Source of the DNA: an uncultured Frankiales bacterium
GTDB lineage: Bacteria; Actinomycetota; Actinomycetes; Mycobacteriales; SCTD01
Assembly (NCBI GenBank): GCA_946479905.1
Contig: CAMLIA010000039.1
Span: forward strand, 1 to 25,902
Reading direction: 5' to 3'
Length of the DNA: 25,902 nucleotides
Part shown: piece by piece, positions 10,965 through 21,200 of the stretch
How the letters are laid out: each line of letters starts with the position of its first letter
Position numbering within the stretch: position 1 is the first letter of the stretch
The notes under the pieces: model-generated
Databases searched by the model: none
What the model was told of the DNA's origin: nothing
Seen by the model: the letters and a program-made list of their open reading frames with translations, nothing else
Program-made: the position numbers and the translations under genes

Positions 10965-12065
10965 CTAGCCCGCCAGCTCCTTGCCAACGGCCCGCAGGCC
11001 GTCGAGGTCGTGCACGTCCCCCGGCAGCGCACCGACCTGAACGACCGGCACCCGCGGGTGCGCCGAGCTGAACCGCTCCTGCAGCCGAGCCTCGCGGTGG
11101 GCCTGCTCGATCCGCTCGGCGTGCACCCGCAGCACCCCGGCGGTGAGCGGGTCCGCGTCCTGTGCCGCGTCCAGCGCCTTCTGCGCGGTGAGCTCGGTCG
11201 CGGCGGTCCGGTGCACCCGGTTCACGACCAGGCCGGCGAGCGGCATCTGCTCCTCGGCGAGCCGCTCGGCGAAGTACGCCGCCTCGCGCAGGGCGTCGCG
11301 CTCGGGCGCCGCCACCACCAGGAAGGTGGTGCCCGGCGCCTTCAGCAGGTCGTAGGTGGCCTGGGCGCGCTCGCGGAACCCGCCGAACATCGTCTCCAGC
11401 GCGCCCACGAACTGGCTGACGTCCTGCAGCACGGAGGCGCCGATGATCCGCGTGATGGCGTTGGTGAACACGTGCAGCCCGGCGCTGACGACCTTCAGGT
11501 AGGCGCGGCCGCCGGCCTTGGCCGGGGCGAGCAGCACCTTGACCAGACGGCCGTCGAGGAACGTCGTGAGGTGGTCGGGCGCGTCCAGGAAGTCCAGCGC
11601 GGACCGGGTCGGCGGGGTGTCCACGACGATCAGGTCCCAGCGTCCCGAGGCGCGCAGCTGACCCAGCTTCTCCATCGCCATGTACTCCTGCGTCCCGGCG
11701 AAGGAGCTGGACAGCGCCTGGTAGAAGGGGTTGGCGAGGATCTGCTCCGCCTTGTCCGGCTCGGCGTGGGTGAGGACGATCTCGTCGAACGTCCGCTTCA
11801 TGTCGAGCATCATCGCGTCGAGCTGGCCGTCGATCCCCTGCACCGCACGTGGGGTGTTGTCGAGCTCGGTCAGCCCCATCGACTGCGCCAGCCGCCGGGC
11901 CGGGTCGATGGTGAGCACCGCGGTCCGCCGGCCGCGCTCCGCGGCGCGTACGGCGAGGGCGGCCGCGGTGGTCGTCTTGCCCACCCCGCCGGCGCCGCAG
12001 CACACGATGATCTGGGCGGTGTCGAGGAGCTCGTCGACCTGCAGCGCCGGCCGGGGGCTCGTCAC
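10965..12065 (-). CDS. ArsA/Get3-like ATPase, second subunit (Rv3680-like)
   Basis: A 366-residue P-loop ATPase. The Walker A is CGAGGVGKTTTAAAL (residues about 22-36): it has the core GxGKT, but alanine stands where deviant Walker A proteins carry the extra lysine that reaches across the dimer. Switch I DPARRL and switch II VVDTPPTRSALDFL are present; Get3 zinc cysteines are not. The GTG start at 12065 overlaps the upstream partner stop (GTGA). Homologue by sequence style and position of M. tuberculosis Rv3680, which works with Rv3679 as a Get3-like pair linked to cell-envelope and stress tolerance. Cargo is unknown. The long open frame upstream of 12065 is a shadow of the partner gene. Confidence 0.93.
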   Translation of the reverse strand: MTSPRPALQVDELLDTAQIIVCCGAGGVGKTTTAAALAVRAAERGRRTAVLTIDPARRLAQSMGLTELDNTPRAVQGIDGQLDAMMLDMKRTFDEIVLTHAEPDKAEQILANPFYQALSSSFAGTQEYMAMEKLGQLRASGRWDLIVVDTPPTRSALDFLDAPDHLTTFLDGRLVKVLLAPAKAGGRAYLKVVSAGLHVFTNAITRIIGASVLQDVSQFVGALETMFGGFRERAQATYDLLKAPGTTFLVVAAPERDALREAAYFAERLAEEQMPLAGLVVNRVHRTAATELTAQKALDAAQDADPLTAGVLRVHAERIEQAHREARLQERFSSAHPRVPVVQVGALPGDVHDLDGLRAVGKELAG

Positions 12066-13042
12066 GCGAGCCCCTGCGACGTGAGGGCGGTCGCCAGGTC
12101 GTACAGGCCACCGAGGTCCACCGCATCCGAGAGCAGCGGCAGCTCGTAGGTGGGCCGGGCGAGCTGGGCCAGCGCGTCGTGGCCGCGCTCCTCCAGCGCG
12201 ACGCGGGCGGCGAAGTCGGCGGCCTCCCCGAGCAGCGCCGGCGCCAGCGCGGTGTCGAGCCCGGCGCTGCGCAGCCCGGCACTGAGCCGGTCGCCGACGG
12301 TGCCCGCCTCGATGCCCGCCAGCAGCTCGGGGCTGAGGTAGGGGGCCCGGACCATGTTGACGATCACGCCGCCGACCGGCAGGCCGGCCCCCGTCAGCTC
12401 CTCGATCGCGTCGATCGTCTCCTGGACGGGCATCTCCTCGAGCAGCGTCACCAGGTGCACGACCGTCTGGGGGCTCTTGAACACCGCCATCACACCGTCG
12501 CTCTGCGCCTTGAGGGGCCCCACCTTCGCGAGGTTGCCGACCTCGTGCGTGATGTTGAGGAACCGGGTGATCCGCCCGGTGGGCGGGGCGTCCACGACCA
12601 CCGCGTCGTAGTAGCGGCCACCCCGGCTCCCGGCCCGGGTCGTGACCTCCTTGACCTTGCCGGTCAGCAGCACGTCGCGGATGCCCGGCGCGATGGTGGT
12701 CGCGAAGTCGATGGCCCCGATCTTGCGCAGGGTGCGGGCCGGCAGCCCCGTCGGCGAGAGCTTGTAGAACATGTGGAGGTAGTCGAGCAGCGCCTGCTCC
12801 GCGTCGACGGCCAGGGCGAACACGTCGCCGCCGCCCTGCGCCACTGCCACCTTGCGCTCCTGGTAGGGCAGCGGCGGGCTGTCGAACAGCTGGGCCAGGC
12901 CCTGCCGGCCCTCGACCTCCATGACGAGGACCTTCTTGCCCCCCGCGGCGAGCGCGAGGGCCAGCGCGGCGGCCACGGTGGTCTTGCCGGTGCCGCCCTT
13001 GCCGGAGACGACGTGCAGCCGCGCCGCGGGGAAGTCCGACAT
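12062..13042 (-). CDS. ArsA/Get3-like ATPase, first subunit (Rv3679-like)
   Basis: A 326-residue ATPase starting MSDFPAARLHVVSGKGGTGKTTVAAAL. Here the Walker A is the full deviant form KGGTGKTT with the signature lysine, and switch II is VVDAPPTGRITRFL. It is the partner of the next gene, which overlaps its stop by 4 nt, so the two should be made in equal amounts and form a heterodimer. The ATG lies 6 nt after TAGGGT on the minus strand and has no Shine-Dalgarno sequence. It matches Rv3679 of M. tuberculosis by position and motif. No membrane helices are seen, so it acts in the cytoplasm, perhaps at the membrane surface. Confidence 0.93.
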   Translation of the reverse strand: MSDFPAARLHVVSGKGGTGKTTVAAALALALAAGGKKVLVMEVEGRQGLAQLFDSPPLPYQERKVAVAQGGGDVFALAVDAEQALLDYLHMFYKLSPTGLPARTLRKIGAIDFATTIAPGIRDVLLTGKVKEVTTRAGSRGGRYYDAVVVDAPPTGRITRFLNITHEVGNLAKVGPLKAQSDGVMAVFKSPQTVVHLVTLLEEMPVQETIDAIEELTGAGLPVGGVIVNMVRAPYLSPELLAGIEAGTVGDRLSAGLRSAGLDTALAPALLGEAADFAARVALEERGHDALAQLARPTYELPLLSDAVDLGGLYDLATALTSQGLA

Positions 13043-13048
13043 GGGTCA

Positions 13049-13054
13049 ACCCTA
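13049..13054 (-). promoter_or_regulatory. -10 hexamer for the ATPase pair, leaderless arrangement
   Basis: TAGGGT on the minus strand, 6 nt before the ATG at 13042. No ribosome binding site is visible. Confidence 0.55.
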
Positions 13055-13118
13055 GAGCGCGCGCAGATCGGTGGCGGTCGGCGGCAGGAACTGCCGCGCG
13101 GAGGTCGAACAGAGCGGT

Positions 13119-13134
13119 TGTGACACAGGCCACA
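13119..13134. promoter_or_regulatory. CRP/cAMP-receptor box upstream of second WhiB gene
   Basis: TGTGA-N6-CCACA, nine of ten positions of the TGTGA-N6-TCACA consensus with exact spacing. It closely resembles the CRP site of M. tuberculosis whiB1, which also has CCAC in the right half. It lies 30 bp before the ATG at 13164 and about 76 bp upstream of the divergent ATPase pair. A second dyad, CACAGG-N6-CCTGTG (13124-13141), overlaps it. Confidence 0.65.
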
Positions 13135-13163
13135 CCCTGTGCGTGTACGGAGGACGACCAGCC

Positions 13164-13490
13164 ATGCCCAGCACAGCGACCATGCTCAGCGCCAACATCA
13201 GCACCGCCGGCCGGCCCGCGCCGGAGCCCACCTGGCGGGGTCACGCGGAGTGCCGCCGTGACAACGCCGTCCACTTCTTCGCGCCCGCCCACTTCGAGCG
13301 CAAGGACGAGAAGGACCGCCGTGAGGGCCAGGCGCGTGCGCTGTGCCGCGCGTGCCCGGTCCAGCAGGCCTGCCTCGAGTACTCCCTGACGGTCCAGGAG
13401 CCGCACGGCATCTGGGGCGGGCTCAACGAGCTCGAGCGCCGGCGGCTGCTGCGCAAGCGGGCAGCGGAGGCCCAGCAGCGCTCCGCCTGA
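13164..13490 (+). CDS. WhiB-family Fe-S regulator (second Wbl of the locus)
   Basis: A 108-residue Wbl protein. Cluster cysteines are in AECRRDN and LCRACPVQQAC (C-x30-C-x2-C-x5-C), followed by HGIWGGLNELERRRLLRKR, the Wbl turn and basic DNA-contact region. The long first spacing and the 27-residue N-terminus distinguish it from the WblA-type protein nearby. Start ATG 13164 is supported by GGAGGA at 13149-13154 with 9 nt spacing. It is divergent from the ATPase pair and carries a CRP box in its promoter region, recalling the cAMP control of whiB1 in mycobacteria. The M. tuberculosis version of this locus has only whiB4, so this is an extra member; its subclass is not certain. Confidence 0.93.
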   Translation: MPSTATMLSANISTAGRPAPEPTWRGHAECRRDNAVHFFAPAHFERKDEKDRREGQARALCRACPVQQACLEYSLTVQEPHGIWGGLNELERRRLLRKRAAEAQQRSA

Positions 13491-13498
13491 GCGGCACC

Positions 13499-13504
13499 TA
13501 GGCT
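13499..13504 (+). promoter_or_regulatory. -10 hexamer for the DUF4177-RidA operon, leaderless arrangement
   Basis: TAGGCT ends 6 nt before the ATG at 13511, just after the stop of the WhiB gene. No ribosome binding site is visible. Confidence 0.5.
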
Positions 13505-13510
13505 CCCCTC

Positions 13511-13666
13511 ATGCAGAAGTGGGAGTACATGACGGCGCCGCTGCTCATCCACGCGACCAAGCAGATCCTCGACAACTTCGGCGAGGACGGCTGGGAGCTC
13601 GTCCAGGTGGTCCCTGGGCCGAACCCCGAGCAGCTGGTGGCGTACTTCAAGCGGGGCAAGCAGTGA
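13511..13666 (+). CDS. Small DUF4177 family protein (51 aa)
   Basis: A 51-residue protein beginning MQKWEYMTAPLL and containing NFGEDGWELVQVV and a terminal YFKRG, the pattern of the DUF4177 family (KWEY, GWELV, KR). Function is unknown. The same small gene stands before the RidA gene in mycobacteria (Rv3678A). Its TGA overlaps the GTG of RidA (GTGA), so the two are coupled. Its start sits 6 nt after a TAGGCT hexamer, and it opens the operon that runs through to the nucleotide cyclase. Confidence 0.88.
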   Translation: MQKWEYMTAPLLIHATKQILDNFGEDGWELVQVVPGPNPEQLVAYFKRGKQ

Positions 13667-14118
13667 GCGCGACAGCCCGGCTGAAGGAGCTCGGCCTCGA
13701 GCTGCCCGAGGTCGTGCCGCCGGTCGCGGCCTACGTGCCCGCCGTGCAGACCGGGTCCCTCGTCTACACCAGCGGCCAGATCCCGATGGCCGGCGGCGCG
13801 ATGGCCCAGACCGGCCTGGTCGGCGGACCGGTCACGCCGGAGCAGGCCAAGGACCTCGCCCGGACCTGTGCCCTCAACGCGCTCGCCGCGATCGACGCGC
13901 TGGTCGGGCTGGACAGCGTCACCCGGGTCGTGAAGGTGGTGGGCTTCGTCGCGAGCGCTCCCGGCTTCACCGGCCAGCCGGCGGTCGTCAACGGGGCGTC
14001 CGAGCTGCTCGGCGAGGTCTTCGGGGACGCCGGGCGGCATGCCCGCTCGGCGGTCGGCGTGGCCGCCCTGCCGCTGGACGCGCCGGTCGAGGTGGAGCTG
14101 ATCGTCGAGGTCGGCTGA
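13663..14118 (+). CDS. RidA family protein (enamine/imine deaminase fold)
   Basis: A 151-residue YjgF/YER057c/UK114 protein. RidA enzymes hydrolyse reactive enamines and imines released by PLP enzymes. Visible family features are the first segment VYTSGQIPM, NALAAIDALVGLDSVTRVVKVVGFVAS, and the end HARSAVGVAALPLDAPVEVELIVEV with the conserved arginine of the active site. The length is slightly above the minimal 130 residues because of an N-terminal extension, as in the Rv3678c group. The GTG start overlaps the preceding stop; its own TGA shares one base with the ATG of the Nudix gene. Confidence 0.93.
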   Translation: MSATARLKELGLELPEVVPPVAAYVPAVQTGSLVYTSGQIPMAGGAMAQTGLVGGPVTPEQAKDLARTCALNALAAIDALVGLDSVTRVVKVVGFVASAPGFTGQPAVVNGASELLGEVFGDAGRHARSAVGVAALPLDAPVEVELIVEVG

Positions 14119-14951
14119 TGGACCTGTCGGAGCTGGAGGACCTGGCCCGCGCGTTCCACCGCGGTGACAAGGTGCCGACCGAGCCCCGGCACGCCTCGAC
14201 CGTCGTGCTGCTGCGCGACTCCCCGGCCGGGCCGGAGGCCTACCTGCTGCGCCGCGTCCGGGGGATGTCGTTCGCCGGCGGGATGCACGTCTTCCCCGGC
14301 GGGTCGGTGGACCCCGACGACGAGGACGCCGACATCGGGTGGGCCGGTCCGCCCGCCTCCCAGTGGGGCACGTGGTTCGGTGCCTCGGAGCGGCTGGCCC
14401 GGGCCCTGGTCTGCGCGGCCGTCCGGGAGACCTTCGAGGAGTGCGGCGTGCTGCTCGCCGGGGAGTCGGCCGAGCACCTGCTCGCCGACGTCAGCAGCGA
14501 CGAGTGGGAGGCCGAGCGGGTCGCGCTGGAGGCCCGCGAGCAGTCGCTGTCGCAGCTGCTCGCGCGCCGCGGCCTGGTGCTGCGCGCGGACCTGCTGCGA
14601 CCCTTCGCGCACTGGATCACCCCGGAGATCGAGCCGAAGCGGTTCGACACCCGGTTCTTCCTCGCCGAGATGCCCGCCGGTCAGGTGTGCCGGCACGTCG
14701 GCGGCGAGGCCGACTCCCGGGTCTGGATCCGGCCGCAGGCGGCGATCGACGAGGAGCTGCGGATGCTGCCGCCCACGCACAACTCGCTGCTGCAGCTCGC
14801 CGGCTACCCCGACGTCCGCAGCGCCCTGGACGACCAGCGCGAGATCCACGTGGTCGCGCCCAAGCTGGTCGTGCTGCCGGACGACAGCGTGAAGTTCGTC
14901 GTACCGGGCGATCTCGACTACCCCACCTCAGACCCGCGCGACGCCGGATGA
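14118..14951 (+). CDS. Nudix hydrolase with long insertion in the Nudix box region
   Basis: A 277-residue protein. The Nudix fold is recognised from VVLLRDSPAGPEAYLLRRV, FAGGMHVFPGGSVDPDD and the catalytic helix AAVRETFEECGVLL (REx2EExG). Between the glycine-rich strand and the catalytic helix there are about 40 extra residues rich in Trp and Gly, as in the eukaryotic NUDT19-like and several actinobacterial members. The substrate is a nucleoside diphosphate linked compound, not predictable here; CoA derivatives are possible. The gene starts one base inside the RidA stop and its stop overlaps the next start by 4 nt. The M. tuberculosis locus has no gene at this point. Confidence 0.9.
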   Translation: MDLSELEDLARAFHRGDKVPTEPRHASTVVLLRDSPAGPEAYLLRRVRGMSFAGGMHVFPGGSVDPDDEDADIGWAGPPASQWGTWFGASERLARALVCAAVRETFEECGVLLAGESAEHLLADVSSDEWEAERVALEAREQSLSQLLARRGLVLRADLLRPFAHWITPEIEPKRFDTRFFLAEMPAGQVCRHVGGEADSRVWIRPQAAIDEELRMLPPTHNSLLQLAGYPDVRSALDDQREIHVVAPKLVVLPDDSVKFVVPGDLDYPTSDPRDAG

Positions 14952-15685
14952 GGCAGGTCACCGAGACGGCCGGGGTCGTGCTCGCGCCGAACCCGGGCCC
15001 CATGACGCTCGACGGCACCAACACCTGGGTGCTCCGGGAGCCGGGGTACGACGGCTGCATCGTCATCGACCCGGGACCCCTTCTCGAGGACCACCTTCAG
15101 GAGGTCGCGTCGCACGGGCCCGTCGACGTGGTGCTGCTGACGCACGGGCACTTCGACCACAGCGAGGGGGCTGCGCGGTTCGCCGAGCTGACCGGTGCCA
15201 AGGTGCGTGCCCTCGACCCCGCGATGCGGCTGGGCGACGAGGGGCTCGGTGAGGGCGACGTCGTCGTCGGCGGCGGCCTGGAGCTGCGGGTGCTCGGGAC
15301 GCCGGGGCACTCGAGCGACTCGCTGTGCTTCGCGCTGCCGGACGCCGTGCTGACCGGCGACACGATCCTGGGCCGCGGGACGACGGTGGTGGCCCACCCC
15401 GACGGGGTGCTCGCCGACTACCTGGAGTCGCTGCGGCGGCTGCAGGAGATGGGCGACCGGACGGTGCTGCCCGGTCACGGTCCCGAGCTGCTGTCGGCGG
15501 GCGACGCCGCGGCCATGTACCTCGCCCACCGGGAGATGCGGCTGGAGCAGGTCAGGGCCGCCGTGGCCGCCGGCGCCGGCACCGCCCGCGAGGTGGTCGA
15601 GGTGGTCTACGCCGACGTCGACCGGGTCCTCTGGCCCGCCGCCGAGCTCTCGGTGCGGGCCCAGCTCGACTTCCTGTCGGCATGA
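14948..15685 (+). CDS. Metallo-beta-lactamase fold hydrolase (Rv3677c-like)
   Basis: A 245-residue cytoplasmic hydrolase of the MBL fold. The two-metal site is complete: LLTHGHFDHSEGA (HxHxDH), TPGHSSDS (third His), LTGDTILG (bridging Asp) and LPGHGPEL (last His). The N-terminus LAPNPGPMTLDGTNTWVL is typical of the LACTB2/glyoxalase II-like branch, whose known members act as endoribonucleases or thioesterases; the substrate here is unknown. The ATG overlaps the Nudix stop and its own stop overlaps the cyclase start, both ATGA. Position and style match M. tuberculosis Rv3677c. Confidence 0.94.
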   Translation: MRQVTETAGVVLAPNPGPMTLDGTNTWVLREPGYDGCIVIDPGPLLEDHLQEVASHGPVDVVLLTHGHFDHSEGAARFAELTGAKVRALDPAMRLGDEGLGEGDVVVGGGLELRVLGTPGHSSDSLCFALPDAVLTGDTILGRGTTVVAHPDGVLADYLESLRRLQEMGDRTVLPGHGPELLSAGDAAAMYLAHREMRLEQVRAAVAAGAGTAREVVEVVYADVDRVLWPAAELSVRAQLDFLSA

Positions 15686-18600
15686 CCGACTGCCCGGTCT
15701 GCGGCTCGCCCGTCGTCCCGGGCGCGAGGTTCTGCTTCAACTGCGGCGCCGCCCTCGCGGAGACCTCGGCCGAGGTCGAGACCGACCGCCGGGTGGTGAC
15801 GGTGCTCTTCGGCGACCTCACCGACTTCACCAGCTGGGCGGAGGACCTCGACCCCGAGCGCGTCGGCGTCGTCACCGACCGGGTGCTCGCGAGCCTCGCG
15901 GCGATCGTCACCGACTTCGGTGGCCACGTCGACAAGCTGGTCGGTGACGGCCTGATGGCGGTCTTCGGGGCGCCGACGGCGCACGAGGACGACGCCGAGC
16001 GCGCCGTCCGCGCGGCCGCCCGGATGCAGGCGTCGGTGCGCCGCCTGGTGTCGGAGGAGAGCGGCGGCGGGCGGCAGCTCGGCCTCCGGGTCGGTCTGAA
16101 CACCGGCGAGGTCATCGCGGGCGTGCAGGCGCAGCTGTCCTACACCGTGGTCGGCGACACGGTGAACACCGCGAGCAGGCTGTCCGACGTCGCGGGCCCG
16201 GGGGCCGTCGTGGCCGGGCGGGACACGGCCCTCGCGACGATGCCCATCGCCTCCTGGCGGGCGCTGCAGCCCTTGCGGCTGAAGGGCAAGCGCGAGCCCG
16301 TCGAGGCCTTCGAGCTGATGGGGCTGCGCCCGGCAGGGGCGACCCGGCTCGGTCTGGGCGACGAGGCGCCGTTCCTGGGCCGGGACGCGGAGCTGGGTCA
16401 GCTCATCGGCCGGACCAACGACACCATCGACCGGCAGACGCCGCGGACGGTGCTCGTGACCGGCGAGGCGGGTGTCGGGAAGACCCGGCTGGCGCAGGAG
16501 CTCACGCGCTACGTCGGGGAGCTGCCGGACGCCCGGGTGCTCTGGGGTCGGAGCGCGCCCTACGGCGAGGGCAGGGACCTGGCGGCGGTCGCGGAGATGG
16601 TCCGCACCGCCTGCGGTGTCGAGGACAGCGACGACGTCGACACCGCTCGCGAGCGGGTCGCCCGCACCGTCGCGCGCCTGGAGCGCGAGGGCCGCCAGCA
16701 GCTGCCCGCGCACCTCGAGGAGTCGCTGCGGCTGCTGCTCGGCCTGGAGGACCTCGACCTCACCGCCCCGCGCGACGTGGCGACACCCGGCGCGCCCGTC
16801 GGGGGCGACCGGGTCCGCAACGCCGTCGCGGCGCTGTTCTCCGCCCTGGCCCGCGAGGGGCCGCTCGTCCTCGTGCTCGACGACCTGCACTGGGCGACGC
16901 CCACGATGGTCGACGGCCTGCTGCAGGTGGCGCGCCAGGTCCGTGGCGGTGTGCTGCTCCTGGGGTTGGGGCGGCTGGACGTGCTCGACGTGCCGGGCCG
17001 CGCGGAGTGGTGGCAGCAGCTGCCCGACGCGGAGCTGCTGCCGCTCGCGCCCCTGGAGGACAGCGCGACCGAGCGGCTGCTGAAGGCCTACCTCGGCGCC
17101 CAGGAGCTGGACGCCGGCGTGCGCGACGCGCTGCTGTCACGCGCTCAGGGCAACCCGTTCTTCCTCGCCGAGCTGCTGCACCTGCTGGTCGACCGCGGGG
17201 TGCTCCGCCGCGGCCCGGACGGCTGGGGGCTGGAGGGGCAGGTCCCGGAGGACGTGCTGCCGGCCGGCGTGCAGGCCGTGCTGGCCGCCCGCATCGACGA
17301 CCTCGACGGCGCGACCAAGGGCGTCCTGCGCGACGCCAGCGTGATCGGGCTGCGGGCCACGCTGCCCGTGCTCGAGGCGGTCGGGCGCGCCTCCGGCCAC
17401 GGCGACCCCGAGGTGGTGCGGGCCGCCGTGCGGACCCTGGTGGACCGCCGGCTGCTCGAGGAGGAGGAGGACGACGACGCCTTCGCGTTCGGCCACACCC
17501 TCGTGCGCGACGTCGCCTACGCCGGCCTGGCCAAGGCCGACCGGGCCCGCCGGCACGCCGCTGTCGCGCTGTGGGCGCAGGACTCCACGGCCCGCAGCGC
17601 GCAGGCCGACGTCGTCACCGCCTCCCAGGGCGAGCGCGCCGTCCGGCTGGCGGCCGAGATGGGGCTGCCCCCGCAGGATCCCTCGTGGCAGGCCCGCGGC
17701 ACGGCGTTCGCCGCGCTCGCCCGGCTGGCCCAGCTCGCCCTCGGCCGCGACGACGCCGCGCAGGCCGAGGCCGTGCTGTCCCGGGCGCTCGCGCTGGCCG
17801 AGCCGCGGTTCGGCGACCCCATCCCCGGCGACCTGCTCGTCCCCGTCCGGGTGGCGCACGCCCAGGCGCTCGTCGCGCTGCACCGGCTGGAGGAGGCCGA
17901 GGCCGAGCTGGGGCCGGCCCTCACCGGCCCCGAGGACGTCGTGCGGGCCGGCGCCCTGCTGGTCCTGGGGGAGGTGCGCCGCAAGCGGGGTGACCTGCCC
18001 GGCGCCCGCGAGGCCTTCGGCTCGGCGCTCGCGGCCGCCGATGCCGCCGGGACCGACCGGCTGTCCGGCGAGGCGCTCCGCCAGCTCGGACTGCTCGACT
18101 ACTTCGACGGCCGGCTGGGGGACGCCGAAAGCCGCTTCCAGCAGGCTCGGGCGCTGGCGCTGCGCGTCGGCGACGACCGAGGGGCCGGGTGGGCGCTGCA
18201 GCACCTCGCGTGGAGCGCCACGACCCGCGGCGACTACCAGCGCGCCGACGAGGCGCTCGAGGCGGCCGTCGAGGTCTTCGCCGGCCTGGAGGACACCGGC
18301 GGGCTGGCGTGGGTCGCGGGCACCGAGGGCTTCGTGCGCGCGCTGCAGGGCCGGTTCGCGGAGGCTCGTGAGCTGGCCCGCTCCCTGCTCCCGGTCGGGG
18401 AGCAGAACAACGAGCGGTGGGGCGTCGGGGCGCTGCTGACCATCGACGCGATCGCGGCCGCCGAGCTGGGGGACGTCGTCGTCGCCGCCAACGAGGCCGA
18501 GCGGGCCCGGGTCCGGTTCGCGGAGATCGGCGACACCTGGGGCGAGTCGCTGGCGCTGTGCGCCGCCGGCATCAGTGCCCGCGGCGCCGACCTCCCGGAC

Positions 18601-19179
18601 CGTGCGGTGGCCTTCCTCGAGCAGGCCGTGCAGATCGGGGAGAGCGGGGGGCACCCGCTCAACGTGGCCCTGGCGCTCGTCGCCCTCGGCTGGGCGCAGC
18701 TGGACCGCGGCCAGGTGGATGCGGCGGAGACGTGCGTCTGGCGCGTCGGCGTGACCCTCGAGGGCATGGACCTGGAGCCGCACGCCGCACTCGGGGCCCG
18801 GGTGCTGCTCGCGCAGGTGCGCCGGCACCGCGGCCAGCGCGAGGAGGCGGTCGCCGAGCTCGACGCGGCGCTCGCCGCGTCCGCCGACGCCCCCGGCCTG
18901 CTGTTCCCGCGGCGGCAGGCGCTCGCGCACCGGGCCGGCACGCTGCTGGAGCTCGGCCGGGTCGACGAGGCGCTCGCCTCCGCGCGCGAAGCGGTCGCGA
19001 CGCCTGCCGAGGACGTCCGCTCGCAGGTACTCGGGCTGCGCGCGCTGGGCAGCTGCCTGCGCGCGACCGGGGACGAGGCCGCTGCGGTCGCCGCCCTGGA
19101 GCAGGCCCTCGAGATCGCCCGCTCCACCGGGCAGCGCTCCGAGCTCGCGGCCACCGAGCGCGCCCTGGCCGCCCGCTGA
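15682..19179 (+). CDS. Class III adenylate/guanylate cyclase fused to AAA/STAND ATPase and TPR-like region
   Basis: A 1165-residue multidomain protein. Residues 1-25 are a zinc ribbon (Cys4, Cys7, Cys18, Cys21). Residues 35-215 are a class III cyclase with all six catalytic positions: metal aspartates Asp45 (LFGDLTDFT) and Asp89 (LVGDGLMAVFG), base-selecting Lys85 and Thr155, transition-state Asn162 and Arg166 (VNTASRL). The Lys/Thr pair is that of class IIIb adenylyl cyclases. An ATPase follows with Walker A GEAGVGKT (261-268) and Walker B LVLVLDD (395-401), then about 700 residues of helical TPR-like repeats. No LuxR-type HTH is present at the end. It closes an operon with four overlapping upstream genes and lies just before crp, so it may supply cAMP for it. 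The activating signal is unknown. Confidence 0.95.
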   Translation: MTDCPVCGSPVVPGARFCFNCGAALAETSAEVETDRRVVTVLFGDLTDFTSWAEDLDPERVGVVTDRVLASLAAIVTDFGGHVDKLVGDGLMAVFGAPTAHEDDAERAVRAAARMQASVRRLVSEESGGGRQLGLRVGLNTGEVIAGVQAQLSYTVVGDTVNTASRLSDVAGPGAVVAGRDTALATMPIASWRALQPLRLKGKREPVEAFELMGLRPAGATRLGLGDEAPFLGRDAELGQLIGRTNDTIDRQTPRTVLVTGEAGVGKTRLAQELTRYVGELPDARVLWGRSAPYGEGRDLAAVAEMVRTACGVEDSDDVDTARERVARTVARLEREGRQQLPAHLEESLRLLLGLEDLDLTAPRDVATPGAPVGGDRVRNAVAALFSALAREGPLVLVLDDLHWATPTMVDGLLQVARQVRGGVLLLGLGRLDVLDVPGRAEWWQQLPDAELLPLAPLEDSATERLLKAYLGAQELDAGVRDALLSRAQGNPFFLAELLHLLVDRGVLRRGPDGWGLEGQVPEDVLPAGVQAVLAARIDDLDGATKGVLRDASVIGLRATLPVLEAVGRASGHGDPEVVRAAVRTLVDRRLLEEEEDDDAFAFGHTLVRDVAYAGLAKADRARRHAAVALWAQDSTARSAQADVVTASQGERAVRLAAEMGLPPQDPSWQARGTAFAALARLAQLALGRDDAAQAEAVLSRALALAEPRFGDPIPGDLLVPVRVAHAQALVALHRLEEAEAELGPALTGPEDVVRAGALLVLGEVRRKRGDLPGAREAFGSALAAADAAGTDRLSGEALRQLGLLDYFDGRLGDAESRFQQARALALRVGDDRGAGWALQHLAWSATTRGDYQRADEALEAAVEVFAGLEDTGGLAWVAGTEGFVRALQGRFAEARELARSLLPVGEQNNERWGVGALLTIDAIAAAELGDVVVAANEAERARVRFAEIGDTWGESLALCAAGISARGADLPDRAVAFLEQAVQIGESGGHPLNVALALVALGWAQLDRGQVDAAETCVWRVGVTLEGMDLEPHAALGARVLLAQVRRHRGQREEAVAELDAALAASADAPGLLFPRRQALAHRAGTLLELGRVDEALASAREAVATPAEDVRSQVLGLRALGSCLRATGDEAAAVAALEQALEIARSTGQRSELAATERALAAR

Positions 19180-19207
19180 CCCGCGCCCTCCCCGTACCCC
19201 CTCCCGC

Positions 19208-19264
19208 CGATCTTCGTCACCTTGCCGTCTCAGGTCCCGCCTGGCCGCAACCTGACGAAGATCG
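19208..19264. repeat. 57-bp nested palindrome (perfect 12-bp arms, two inner stems)
   Basis: CGATCTTCGTCA (19208-19219) and TGACGAAGATCG (19253-19264) are perfect inverted copies. Inside, TTGC (19222-19225) pairs with GCAA (19247-19250), and CAGG (19231-19234) with CCTG (19240-19243) around a 5-nt loop. It fills most of the 113-bp gap after the cyclase gene. No U-run follows, so it is either a factor-assisted terminator, a processing signal or a copy of a dispersed palindromic repeat. Confidence 0.7.
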
Positions 19265-19292
19265 CTGAGGCCAGCGCGGGAGGTGCGCGAGG

Positions 19293-19709
19293 ATGGCGCG
19301 CATGAAGAACCTGCTCGAGGTCGCGCCGGACTGGGTGACGCTGCGCGCGGAGACGCCGGAGGGCAACCCGGTCGTGGTGCTGGTGGACCGGGCGATCGTG
19401 ACGACGGTCCCCTACGACGTGTTCACGCTGCAGGTCGCGATCGCGGTGCCGCTCGGCGAGACCCGCGACGGGCTGCCGGCCGAGTCGGACAAGGAGAACC
19501 TGCGCACGCTGGAGCAGGGCATGGTCGACATGGCCGCCGGGGAGGCCCGGCTGGTCGCCGTCATGACGCTGGAGGGCATCCGGGAGTGGATGTTCTACGC
19601 GCGGACGACCGAGTGGTGCCGGCCGTTCGTCGATGCGGGCCTGTCGGTGAAGTACGCCGAGGACCCGACCTTCAGCGGCTTGCTGGAGCTAGCGGGCTCG
19701 CCGGGCTAG
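19293..19709 (+). CDS. DUF695-like protein of unknown function
   Basis: A 138-residue soluble protein starting [14 protein letters not shown]. The order of features, a strand with [10 protein letters not shown], then [58 protein letters not shown] and a C-terminal YAEDPTFSG, resembles the DUF695 family; I am only fairly sure of this. Function is unknown. The ATG at 19293 is supported by GGGAGG at 19278-19283 with 9 nt spacing; ATG 19302 is a possible alternative. The last 21 bp overlap the 3' end of crp, which runs the other way. Confidence 0.7.
19689..19709. terminator. Dyad formed by the two overlapping convergent stop codons
   Basis: CTAGC (19689-19693) and GCTAG (19705-19709) are inverted copies around an 11-nt GC-rich loop. 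Each arm contains one of the two TAG stops. A short bidirectional hairpin is possible, but the stem is small. Confidence 0.3.
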
Positions 19710-20363
19710 CCGGTCGGCGTCGAGGATCGTCAGGGCGCGCGAGTCGACCCGGACCCAGCCGCGGGAGGCGAAGTCGGCGAGCGCCTTGTTCACCGTCTCG
19801 CGGGAGGCCCCGACCAGCTGGGCCAGCTCCTCCTGGGTGAGGTCGTGGTGCACGCGCAGGCCGTCGGGCTCCTCCGAGCCGAAGCGCTCCGACAGGGCGA
19901 GCAGCTGCTTGGCGACGCGACCGGGGACGTCGGTGAAGATGAGGTCGGCGAGGGCGTCGTTGGTACGACGCAGCCGGCGGGCCAGGACGCGGAGCAGCTG
20001 CTCGGCGATCTCCGGGCGGTCGGTGATCCACGGGCGCAGGTCCTTGTGGGCCAGCGAGGCCAGCCGGGCGTCCGTGACGACGGTGGCGGTGGCGGTGCGC
20101 GGCCCGGGGTCGAACAGCGACAGCTCGCCGAACATGTCGGAGGGGCCCATGACCGAGAGCATGTTCTCCCGGCCGTCGGTGGCGCGGCGCCCGATCTTCA
20201 CCTTGCCCTGCAGCACGATGTAGAGCGTGTCGCCCAGCTCGCCCTCCGCGAAGACGGTCTCACCCCGCCCGTAGTCGCCGTGCTCCAGCGACGCCGCGAC
20301 GGCCTCAGCGGCCTCTGTCGCGATGCCCTGGAAGAGCCCCGCCTTCGCCAGGACCTCGTCCAC
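19689..20363 (-). CDS. crp: cAMP receptor protein, Crp/Fnr family (Rv3676-like)
   Basis: A 224-residue global regulator. Residues 1-115 are the cyclic-nucleotide domain with the phosphate-binding cassette [16 protein letters not shown] (Glu80, Arg89, Thr90); the dimer helix [17 protein letters not shown] carries Thr134 and Asn135, the cAMP-contact positions of M. tuberculosis CRP at identical numbering. The winged helix has the recognition helix in [21 protein letters not shown] and ends RLARRAR as in Rv3676. The GTG at 20363 is supported by GGGAGG 8 nt upstream. It should sense cAMP and act at TGTGA-N6-TCACA-like sites, of which one strong and one weak example are in this window. It overlaps the convergent DUF695-like gene by 21 bp. 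Confidence 0.97.
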
Positions 20364-20404
20364 CGTCCGTGCCTCCCGTTGCCTGCTCGTGCGCGTCTGC
20401 CGGG

Positions 20405-20420
20405 AGTGTGTCAGATCACG
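20405..20420. promoter_or_regulatory. Weak CRP-like box upstream of crp
   Basis: AGTGT-N6-TCACG, with the core GTG-N8-CAC and seven of ten consensus positions. It lies 41-57 bp before the crp start and directly after the stop of the small membrane protein gene. It could serve autoregulation. Confidence 0.35.
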
Positions 20421-20666
20421 TCACTGACGCCCACGCCCCGGCAGCAGTCGCGACAGCCGTCGCCGCCGCCAGTAGCGCTCCAGCGCCGGCGCGTAGCCCT
20501 CGCTCACGAAGGTCTCCACCTCGTCCGGGCGGGCCGTGTCGAGGAAGGTCTCGAGCTGGTCGTTGACCTCGGTCTCCTGGCGCAGCGGCCGCTCCACCCG
20601 CTCCATGGCGAGCATCAGGCCGAGCAGGGCCAGCGGGAGCAGCAGGCCCAGCAGCAGGACGGACAC
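20421..20666 (-). CDS. Small single-pass membrane protein (Rv3675-like position)
   Basis: An 81-residue protein. Residues 1-20 (MSVLLLGLLLPLALLGLMLA) form one transmembrane helix and the rest is a charged cytoplasmic part with MERVERPL, LDTARPDEVETFV and an Arg-rich tail RYWRRRRLSRLL. No enzymatic motif is visible. A small membrane protein stands between crp and nth in mycobacteria too (Rv3675), so it is probably the same gene by position. The start is GTG at 20666, 6 nt after TAACGT, whose first three bases are the TAA stop of the upstream RsiG-like gene. It runs in the crp direction with a 57-bp gap. Confidence 0.8.
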   Translation of the reverse strand: MSVLLLGLLLPLALLGLMLAMERVERPLRQETEVNDQLETFLDTARPDEVETFVSEGYAPALERYWRRRRLSRLLPGRGRQ

Positions 20667-20672
20667 CTGCCG

Positions 20673-20678
20673 ACGTTA
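20673..20678 (-). promoter_or_regulatory. -10 hexamer containing the stop codon of the RsiG-like gene
   Basis: TAACGT on the minus strand is 6 nt before the GTG at 20666; its TAA is also the stop codon of the upstream gene. Confidence 0.4.
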
Positions 20679-21200
20679 TGCCACGCGCCCGCGGCGCGGC
20701 TGCGTGGGCAGCGCGGTCAGGCACAGGTTGGGCTCGTCGCGGTACCGGGCGATGAGCTCCGACGTCGCGTCGCCGAGGCGCGCGTGCAGCGCGTTGCGGT
20801 ACGACGACAGCTGCTTCTCGGCCTCGTCGAGGTCGGCCTCGAGCCGGGCGAGCCCCTCGGCGTCGCTCGGGTCCACCTGGCGCTCCCACAGGGAGGCGAG
20901 GTCCGGCAGCGGCGGGATGTCGTTGGTGGGGAGCACCTCGACGAGGGCCCGCCGGCCGGCGCCGATGCGCTCGTCGGTGAGGACCGGCTTGAGGTTCTCC
21001 GAGACCAGGTCGCTGCCGGCCCGGACCACGTCGAGGCGGGCCTGGATGATGCGCCGCCAGTAGGAGACGTTGGACTCCTCGGCAGTGAGGGCGGTGCGGT
21101 ACTCGCGCAACCCGTCCAGGGTCAGGTGAGCGTGCTGCTCGGTACGCCGCGGCTCGGGACGCACCTGCTGCTTGCGCGCGCTCTGCTGGACCTGCTCCAT
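20676..21200 (-). CDS. rsiG: RsiG-like c-di-GMP-binding anti-sigma factor
   Basis: A 174-residue helical protein. Residues 42-57 read E-x3-S-x2-R-x3-Q-x3-D exactly (Glu42, Ser46, Arg49, Gln53, Asp57), the c-di-GMP-binding signature of RsiG, the anti-sigma factor that holds the sporulation sigma WhiG in Streptomyces. A second helix at 128-143 keeps Glu128, Ser132 and Arg135 but has His139 and Gly143 in place of Gln and Asp. The linker LWERQVDPSDAEGLARLEADL fits the helical hairpin. The open frame reaches 21242, but ATG 21200 with GGGGAAGGG just upstream is the likely start. Older annotation would call it an aerial mycelium formation protein. No whiG is in the window. It is divergent from nth across 125 bp. 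Confidence 0.82.
   Translation of the reverse strand: MEQVQQSARKQQVRPEPRRTEQHAHLTLDGLREYRTALTAEESNVSYWRRIIQARLDVVRAGSDLVSENLKPVLTDERIGAGRRALVEVLPTNDIPPLPDLASLWERQVDPSDAEGLARLEADLDEAEKQLSSYRNALHARLGDATSELIARYRDEPNLCLTALPTQPRRGRVA

Follow-up and report, generated by a model that had tools for sequence, protein, structure and literature searches.

We analysed a stretch of 25,902 nucleotides (contig CAMLIA010000039.1, assembly GCA_946479905.1) from an uncultured Frankiales bacterium, hereafter called the window. It carries a gene for a 1165-residue nucleotide cyclase close to crp, which encodes a cAMP receptor protein (CRP) of the Rv3676 type. The gene order, with strands in brackets, is bagA (−), a CRP-type box, whiB (+), a DUF4177-like gene (+), a RidA-like gene (+), a NUDIX-like gene (+), a metallo-beta-lactamase-fold (MBL) gene (+), the cyclase gene (+), a DUF695 gene (+), crp (−), a small gene of unknown kind (−) and nth (+) (Table 1). 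No gene other than the DUF695-like one was seen between the cyclase gene and crp, in agreement with the initial annotation of this DNA. Our data tentatively point to a sensor-gated cAMP source in the neighbourhood of CRP, in which the sensor cyclase would raise cAMP, cAMP would load CRP and CRP would act on whiB.

Table 1. Positions of genes and other features around the cyclase gene and crp in the window
Feature	Position	Strand	Basis or remark
bagA, ATPase gene	12062..13042	−	NF053622 above cut-off; diverges from whiB, the box lying between the two
CRP-type box TGTGACACAGGCCACA, between bagA and whiB	13119..13134	+	exact match; predicted site
Second WhiB gene	13164..13490	+	best solved-structure match WhiB3
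TAGGCT, candidate −10 of a leaderless RidA-to-cyclase operon promoter	13499..13504	+	6 bases before the DUF4177 ATG
DUF4177-like gene, 51 aa	13511..13666	+	24.9 bits versus Pfam cut-off 25; stop overlaps RidA start
RidA/YjgF-like gene	13663..14118	+	profile match
NUDIX-like gene	14118..14951	+	weak match, below cut-off
MBL gene, LACTB2-like	14948..15685	+	PDB 4ad9 (LACTB2 by name); 4-bp overlap with cyclase start
Cyclase-STAND gene, 1165 aa	15682..19179	+	ORF list, Pfam, residue alignment, fold comparison
Strong hairpin directly after cyclase stop	19180..19292		arms at 19209 and 19253; folding versus shuffles
DUF695 gene	19293..19709	+	Pfam; not in all of the window clade
crp, Rv3676-type cAMP receptor protein	19689..20363	−	Pfam, PDB alignment; convergent to cyclase

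Domains and catalytic residues of the cyclase

Pfam profiles placed a zinc ribbon at residues 4–25 of the cyclase protein (Cys 4, 7, 18 and 21), a Guanylate_cyc domain at 38–204, an AAA_16 domain at 230–411 and TPRs up to about residue 1148. The P-loop NTPase has the Walker A motif GEAGVGKT (261–268), the Thr of which is T or S among relatives, and Walker B Asp residues at 400–401. A TPR superhelix spans about 620–1163, with TPR-like helix pairs reaching residue 1163. The protein thus combines a P-loop NTPase with both Walker motifs, a repeat sensor and an effector domain, which is the arrangement of a STAND protein, and the best folds for both the sensor and the whole model were PDB 6mfv and 1hz4. 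The zinc ribbon, ATPase and TPR fusion described in the initial annotation is therefore present, but the scaffold is of a known type, a STAND sensor, and not an unclassified one. The VIA-align rows for the cyclase model were mostly TPR folds, and the NTPase and zinc ribbon were barely probed by this comparison. STAND gating of the cyclase is fairly probable. Pfam and NCBIfam scans found no helix-turn-helix family in the protein, which also lacks the C-terminal LuxR helix-turn-helix characteristic of Mclx proteins. Assignment to the TOMM kinase/cyclase family (TIGR03903) was rejected, as the protein scored 191.2 bits against a curated cut-off of 705.75.

All six catalytic residues of a class IIIb cyclase had been assigned to this protein, and our alignment bore this out: the metal-binding Asp residues D45 and D89, the adenine-specifying K85 and T155 and the transition-state residues N162 and R166. 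Class IIIb enzymes have Thr in place of Asp in the adenine-specifying pair. As a rule, Lys with Asp reads ATP (PMC4886424). The Lys/Thr pair and the metal and transition-state residues are kept throughout the window clade. Adenylyl cyclase activity of the window enzyme is likely. Among the 12 loci with cyclase relatives that were found, seven ('Frankiales bacterium' metagenome-assembled genomes) encode proteins 75–86% identical to it and five, from Frankia and Pseudofrankia, proteins about 50% identical. The cyclase open reading frame is broken in one locus (L045 of genome G030; L and G numbers denote loci and genomes in our set) and split over two contigs in G033, both genomes being of the Frankia order, reflecting either decay or assembly error.

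CRP and CRP-type boxes

An ungapped alignment of 224 residues was obtained between the window CRP and PDB 3h3u (E 5.8e-100), which we take to be Rv3676. At the positions that we assume to contact cAMP, G79, E80, L81, R89, T90, R130, T134 and N135 are identical and position 91 has A instead of S, so that the earlier statement that crp keeps the cAMP contacts of Rv3676 holds with this one exception. Together with the cNMP domain and the Crp-type helix-turn-helix, these residues place the protein in the Rv3676/GlxR type.

The TGTGA-N6-CCACA box predicted before the second WhiB gene is an exact TGTGACACAGGCCACA. It fits the Rv3676 consensus GTGnnAnnnnnCACA (PMC4005916; comparisons with known systems here and below refer to extracts of the cited papers). 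Allowing up to one mismatch, the window contains two matches, which are one site read on both strands, against a shuffle mean of 1.45; the weight of the site therefore comes only from its conservation in relatives. A box of the form [TC]GTG[AT]-N6-CCACA was present in 10 of 11 distinct aligned bagA-whiB spacers (a twelfth row, L102, repeats the contig of L004), the flanking sequence being poorly conserved. With three loci added later (box in G073, none in G099 and G120), the relaxed box occurs in 11 of 14 whiB spacers. The strict box was found in seven of the first 11 spacers, compared with 0.007 expected. This conservation supports the proposed step from CRP to WhiB. Binding of CRP to the window box is likely. 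Most loci of the window clade share a further conserved block in the bagA-whiB spacer, GCAGGA, upstream of the box.

We scanned 161 fetched loci and the window (1.73 Mb, partly overlapping, all from crp/cyclase neighbourhoods or cyclase relatives) for the strict box. Sixteen were found: eight in the bagA-whiB spacer, seven in the MBL-cyclase spacer and one inside nth of L082. These seven stand directly before the cyclase gene in seven genomes of one Frankia/Pseudofrankia clade, out of 33 Frankia-order genomes for which this spacer was available. Both arms match the pattern perfectly and the central six bases vary (GCGGCA, GCACGG, GCGCCA), which is what a bound palindrome would show. A form with two mismatches occurs in a comparable position before the cyclase gene in four other Frankia. 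We lean slightly towards CRP control of the cyclase in the seven-genome clade. In six window-clade genomes chosen for their box, the strict pattern gave 61 strand hits (45 positions) against five strand hits of a reversed control, and one of these positions per genome was the whiB spacer. Other cyclase-domain genes on a contig with a box numbered 0 of 17 in the five genomes having both counts.

A weaker box had also been proposed before crp. Within 400 bp, the closest match is CGTGATCTGACACACT (20405–20420), with three mismatches; the window has about one match of this class per kb. We rejected it as a crp box because it is at chance level.

Linkage of the cyclase gene to crp and to the MBL gene

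Cyclase orthologues were found in 34 of 35 genomes of the Frankia order, all 35 of which have crp. In the order of the window clade, 81 of 298 sampled genomes have the cyclase (E≤1e-95) and 296 have crp (E≤1e-60). The two genes are on one contig in 103 of the 115 cyclase-bearing genomes and on different contigs in 11, and G303 has no crp match. They are convergent in 103/103 same-contig genomes, so the comparison of gene neighbourhoods proposed as a check revealed a conserved linkage. The gap ranges from −6 bp to 83 kb. Measured between match ends, it is below 1 kb in 46 genomes, 1–5 kb in seven, 5–12 kb in four, 12–30 kb in 40 and 65–83 kb in six. In the tree, the crp-linked cyclases form one clade (72 rows, SH-aLRT 100), and the far-gap group nests beside a form 3.3 kb from crp, indicating that the linkage is ancestral and was later loosened.

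In 70 of 80 rows, the MBL gene lies directly upstream of the cyclase gene and either overlaps it or is separated from it by no more than 592 bp; these are all of the rows showing both genes (70/70). Four of the other ten start at or just before the cyclase gene (excised stretch or contig end) and six belong to the far-gap clade (G108, G142, G156, G205, G236, G326), in which no MBL gene was found upstream within the 1.5–6.9 kb on hand. Five of these six genomes have the cyclase gene 65–83 kb from crp; in G156 the two genes are on different contigs. The MBL gene is thus a tighter, fixed partner of the cyclase than crp is. In the 12–30 kb group the cyclase gene stays with the MBL gene, and crp stays with nth in L083 and L091, where enough sequence was taken. 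The same holds for crp and nth in L080–L082 (gaps of 5–7 kb), and no nth was found within 2 kb beyond crp in L086 and L088.

Clean loss of the cyclase gene with retention of crp was seen in four genomes, G073, G099, G154 and G020. The loci concerned are L127, L132 and L133 in the window clade and L061 in the Frankia order, all with the MBL gene and crp now ~27–59 bp apart. The MBL gene is 0.9–5.4 kb from crp in four of six fetched cyclase-free loci of the window clade's order (L055, L056, L058, L060), and was not seen near crp in L057 and L059.

Phylum-wide, cyclase relatives of 33–40% identity were present in 25 of 396 genomes (E≤1e-95), including G003 and G053 of the inner orders. Six of the 23 others had a crp match at E≤1e-40, in each case on a contig without a cyclase match. 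Two distant genomes, G343 and G358 (L147, L148), have the order NUDIX-MBL-cyclase, preceded in the fuller form by bagB-bagA-whiB-RidA; L147, from a distant actinobacterium, shows the full bag-whiB-RidA-NUDIX-MBL-cyclase order. No Rv3676-type crp was found in G343 at E≤1e-40, and the nearest crp match in G358 is 47% identical and on a contig other than that of the cyclase.

A promoter-like element within the array

From whiB to the cyclase gene, all genes are on the plus strand, with a gap of 20 bp after whiB followed by overlaps of 1–4 bp. The −10 element of actinobacterial leaderless promoters follows the rule TANNNT. Of 17 window-side loci, 16 have such an element 6–7 bases ahead of the DUF4177 ATG (L133 was not assessable), and in five of nine Frankia loci examined it lies 8 bases ahead, the other four not being assessable. 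At other starts the same test was positive for bagA in 12/13 and for nth in 1/12, and no TANNNT preceded the RidA, NUDIX, MBL, cyclase or crp starts. The element is likely the own promoter of the RidA-to-cyclase operon, and the cyclase gene is a candidate last gene of a DUF4177-RidA-NUDIX-MBL-cyclase operon with this promoter. In that case, CRP at the box would regulate whiB and perhaps bagA, and would reach the cyclase gene only through read-through. A scan of 13000–20700 for sigma-70 promoters and T-tract terminators found nothing, which has little weight in GC-rich actinobacterial DNA.

Comparison with known systems

The M. tuberculosis proteins Mclx1–3 (Rv0386, Rv1358, Rv2488c) are cyclase-AAA/NB-ARC-LuxR proteins, and Mclx1 has adenylyl and some guanylyl cyclase activity (PMC4452763). 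In the window protein, too, a cyclase homology domain at the N-terminus precedes an AAA/NB-ARC-type ATPase. Unlike Mclx1–3, it ends in TPRs instead of a LuxR helix-turn-helix, has a zinc ribbon and is encoded in a crp/MBL neighbourhood. The combination of a P-loop NTPase with a TPR sensor is shared with the STAND ATPases MalT and PH0952 (PMC6468293; PDB 1hz4, 6mfv), whose effector, however, is a DNA-binding domain and not a nucleotide cyclase. In Xanthomonas, XC_0250/XC_0249 also link a class III cyclase gene to the gene of a cyclic-nucleotide effector, but they involve cGMP and a cNMP-GGDEF effector, with no CRP and no STAND module (PMC3770947).

A class III cyclase supplies a CRP-family regulator in the CyaB/GlxR system of C. 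glutamicum (PMC7026483, PMC7999487) and in Cya/Clr of S. meliloti (PMC13001267), as proposed here. The GlxR consensus TGTGA-N6-TCACA is of the same box type as that of the window; CyaB differs in being membrane-bound (PMC7026483, PMC7999487). The extracts of these three papers make no mention of conserved gene linkage or of a CRP site at a STAND cyclase for either system. The action of CRP on whiB1 is known (PMC4005916, PMC8026907). Fused cyclase-ATPases (PMC4452763), TPR-STAND switches (PMC6468293) and effector-linked cyclase genes (PMC3770947) are likewise known already. What is new is the exact CRP boxes directly before the cyclase gene in one Frankia clade. At the level of titles and abstracts, no published account was found of the cyclase/CRP combination, its depth in Frankia and relatives or the conserved CRP sites; the body of a 2004 survey covering actinobacterial cyclases (PMC2447327) could contain one.

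A possible sensor-gated cAMP source

We propose that the MalT-like TPR superhelix binds a ligand, which may be a sugar, a peptide or a protein, and that the P-loop NTPase then switches from its closed ADP form to an open ATP form, which multimerises. Multimerisation would pair cyclase domains into active dimers, and the rising cAMP would load CRP. In the window clade, CRP would bind the box before whiB and control this WhiB3-like gene, perhaps bagA as well, and transcription might read through into the cyclase operon. In the one Frankia/Pseudofrankia clade, CRP would act directly on the cyclase gene, closing a feedback loop. We hold the general scheme, from sensor cyclase through cAMP and CRP to whiB, at slightly less than even confidence. 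The domains, catalytic residues and gene overlaps, and the conservation of the linkage, boxes and promoter-like element, are observed in sequence or by computation.

Several observations weigh against this scheme. The TM-scores of the cyclase model to 6mfv are low (0.23/0.37). K85 is replaced by Asn in 32 of 33 Frankia-order cyclase rows (e.g. L007–L011, L044–L048, L103–L124); the other five catalytic residues are kept in these rows, and L043 (G022) alone retains Lys. The substrate preference of the Frankia enzymes may have shifted, and because the clade with the box before the cyclase gene has Asn at this position, cAMP may not be its main product. The exact box is absent before the cyclase gene in 26 of the 33 Frankia-order spacers. 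whiB occurs without a box in G099, G120, L096 and the distant L147, and G073 has lost the cyclase gene and retains whiB with its box. Seven genomes have 2–5 cyclase-domain matches each, so that this cyclase need not be the main cAMP source of CRP. The initial annotation suggested a 'local' circuit in which a signal is converted 'directly' to CRP activity. This does not follow from gene position, as cAMP diffuses, and adjacency alone shows no circuit.

Taken alone, the crp linkage fits passive synteny no less well than a functional tie. The cyclase gene may be cargo of the RidA/NUDIX/MBL operon, with crp-nth merely the next conserved block and the enzyme feeding a general cAMP pool. We regard this as a serious, although not the favoured, possibility. 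It would account for the MBL-cyclase order in G343 and G358 away from an Rv3676-type crp, for the break between cyclase and crp in the 12–30 kb group, for the clean losses and for the MBL gene near crp in cyclase-free loci, but it leaves unexplained the exact CRP boxes directly before the cyclase gene in seven Frankia-order genomes. The proposal that the enzyme is no cAMP source for CRP, being inactive or making cGMP or another nucleotide, is quite improbable. It draws on the nearest structure, the guanylyl cyclase Cya2 (2w01), and on the Frankia Asn, and is opposed by the full set of catalytic residues in the window clade.

Feedback in the window itself would arise if the box-bearing whiB promoter were transcribed through DUF4177-RidA-NUDIX-MBL into the cyclase gene, CRP then controlling its own cAMP source. 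The single strand, the short gaps and overlaps and the lack of a terminator-like site between the genes in the scanned region are consistent with it, whereas the box tracks whiB and not the cyclase gene, and a conserved promoter-like element that separates whiB from the DUF4177 gene counts against this simplest feedback model. We therefore treat CRP control of the whole whiB-to-cyclase array as an alternative, and consider it unlikely; read-through control of the cyclase in the window is a little less so, yet still doubtful. An exact CRP-type box at the cyclase gene itself was seen only in the seven-genome clade, the window box being at whiB instead. An ancient self-regulated module in Frankia-like and related actinobacteria is a similarly long shot: a STAND-gated adenylyl cyclase would have been held at the side of crp since before the lineages split, its own unit being a CRP target by read-through from the whiB promoter in the window clade and by a new site before the cyclase gene in Pseudofrankia and kin.

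To our knowledge, the signals that set CRP activity in actinobacteria are largely open, and where several class III cyclases are present, the genes rarely tell which of them serves CRP. Here, one cyclase is singled out by ancient linkage and CRP boxes. In the fold comparison, its sensor resembled the TPRs that bind ligands in MalT and in peptide-sensing regulators, so that the signal setting CRP becomes a defined question. If the ancient self-regulated module is real, the level at which the global regulator CRP and a WhiB3-like iron-sulfur regulator operate would be set by a ligand sensed through the TPRs. Each step is testable because Frankia is culturable.

Further features of the cyclase unit

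The hairpin directly after the cyclase stop folds at −64 kcal/mol compared with −38.9 kcal/mol for shuffles (z −7.07). Both of its arms were found together in no other fetched locus. It is a plausible end of the operon. In the Frankia order, many MBL-cyclase spacers share a conserved block resembling CACTAAACT, and GGAGG and GTG follow it ahead of the cyclase start; these perhaps represent a promoter plus leader ORF, or else a start further upstream.

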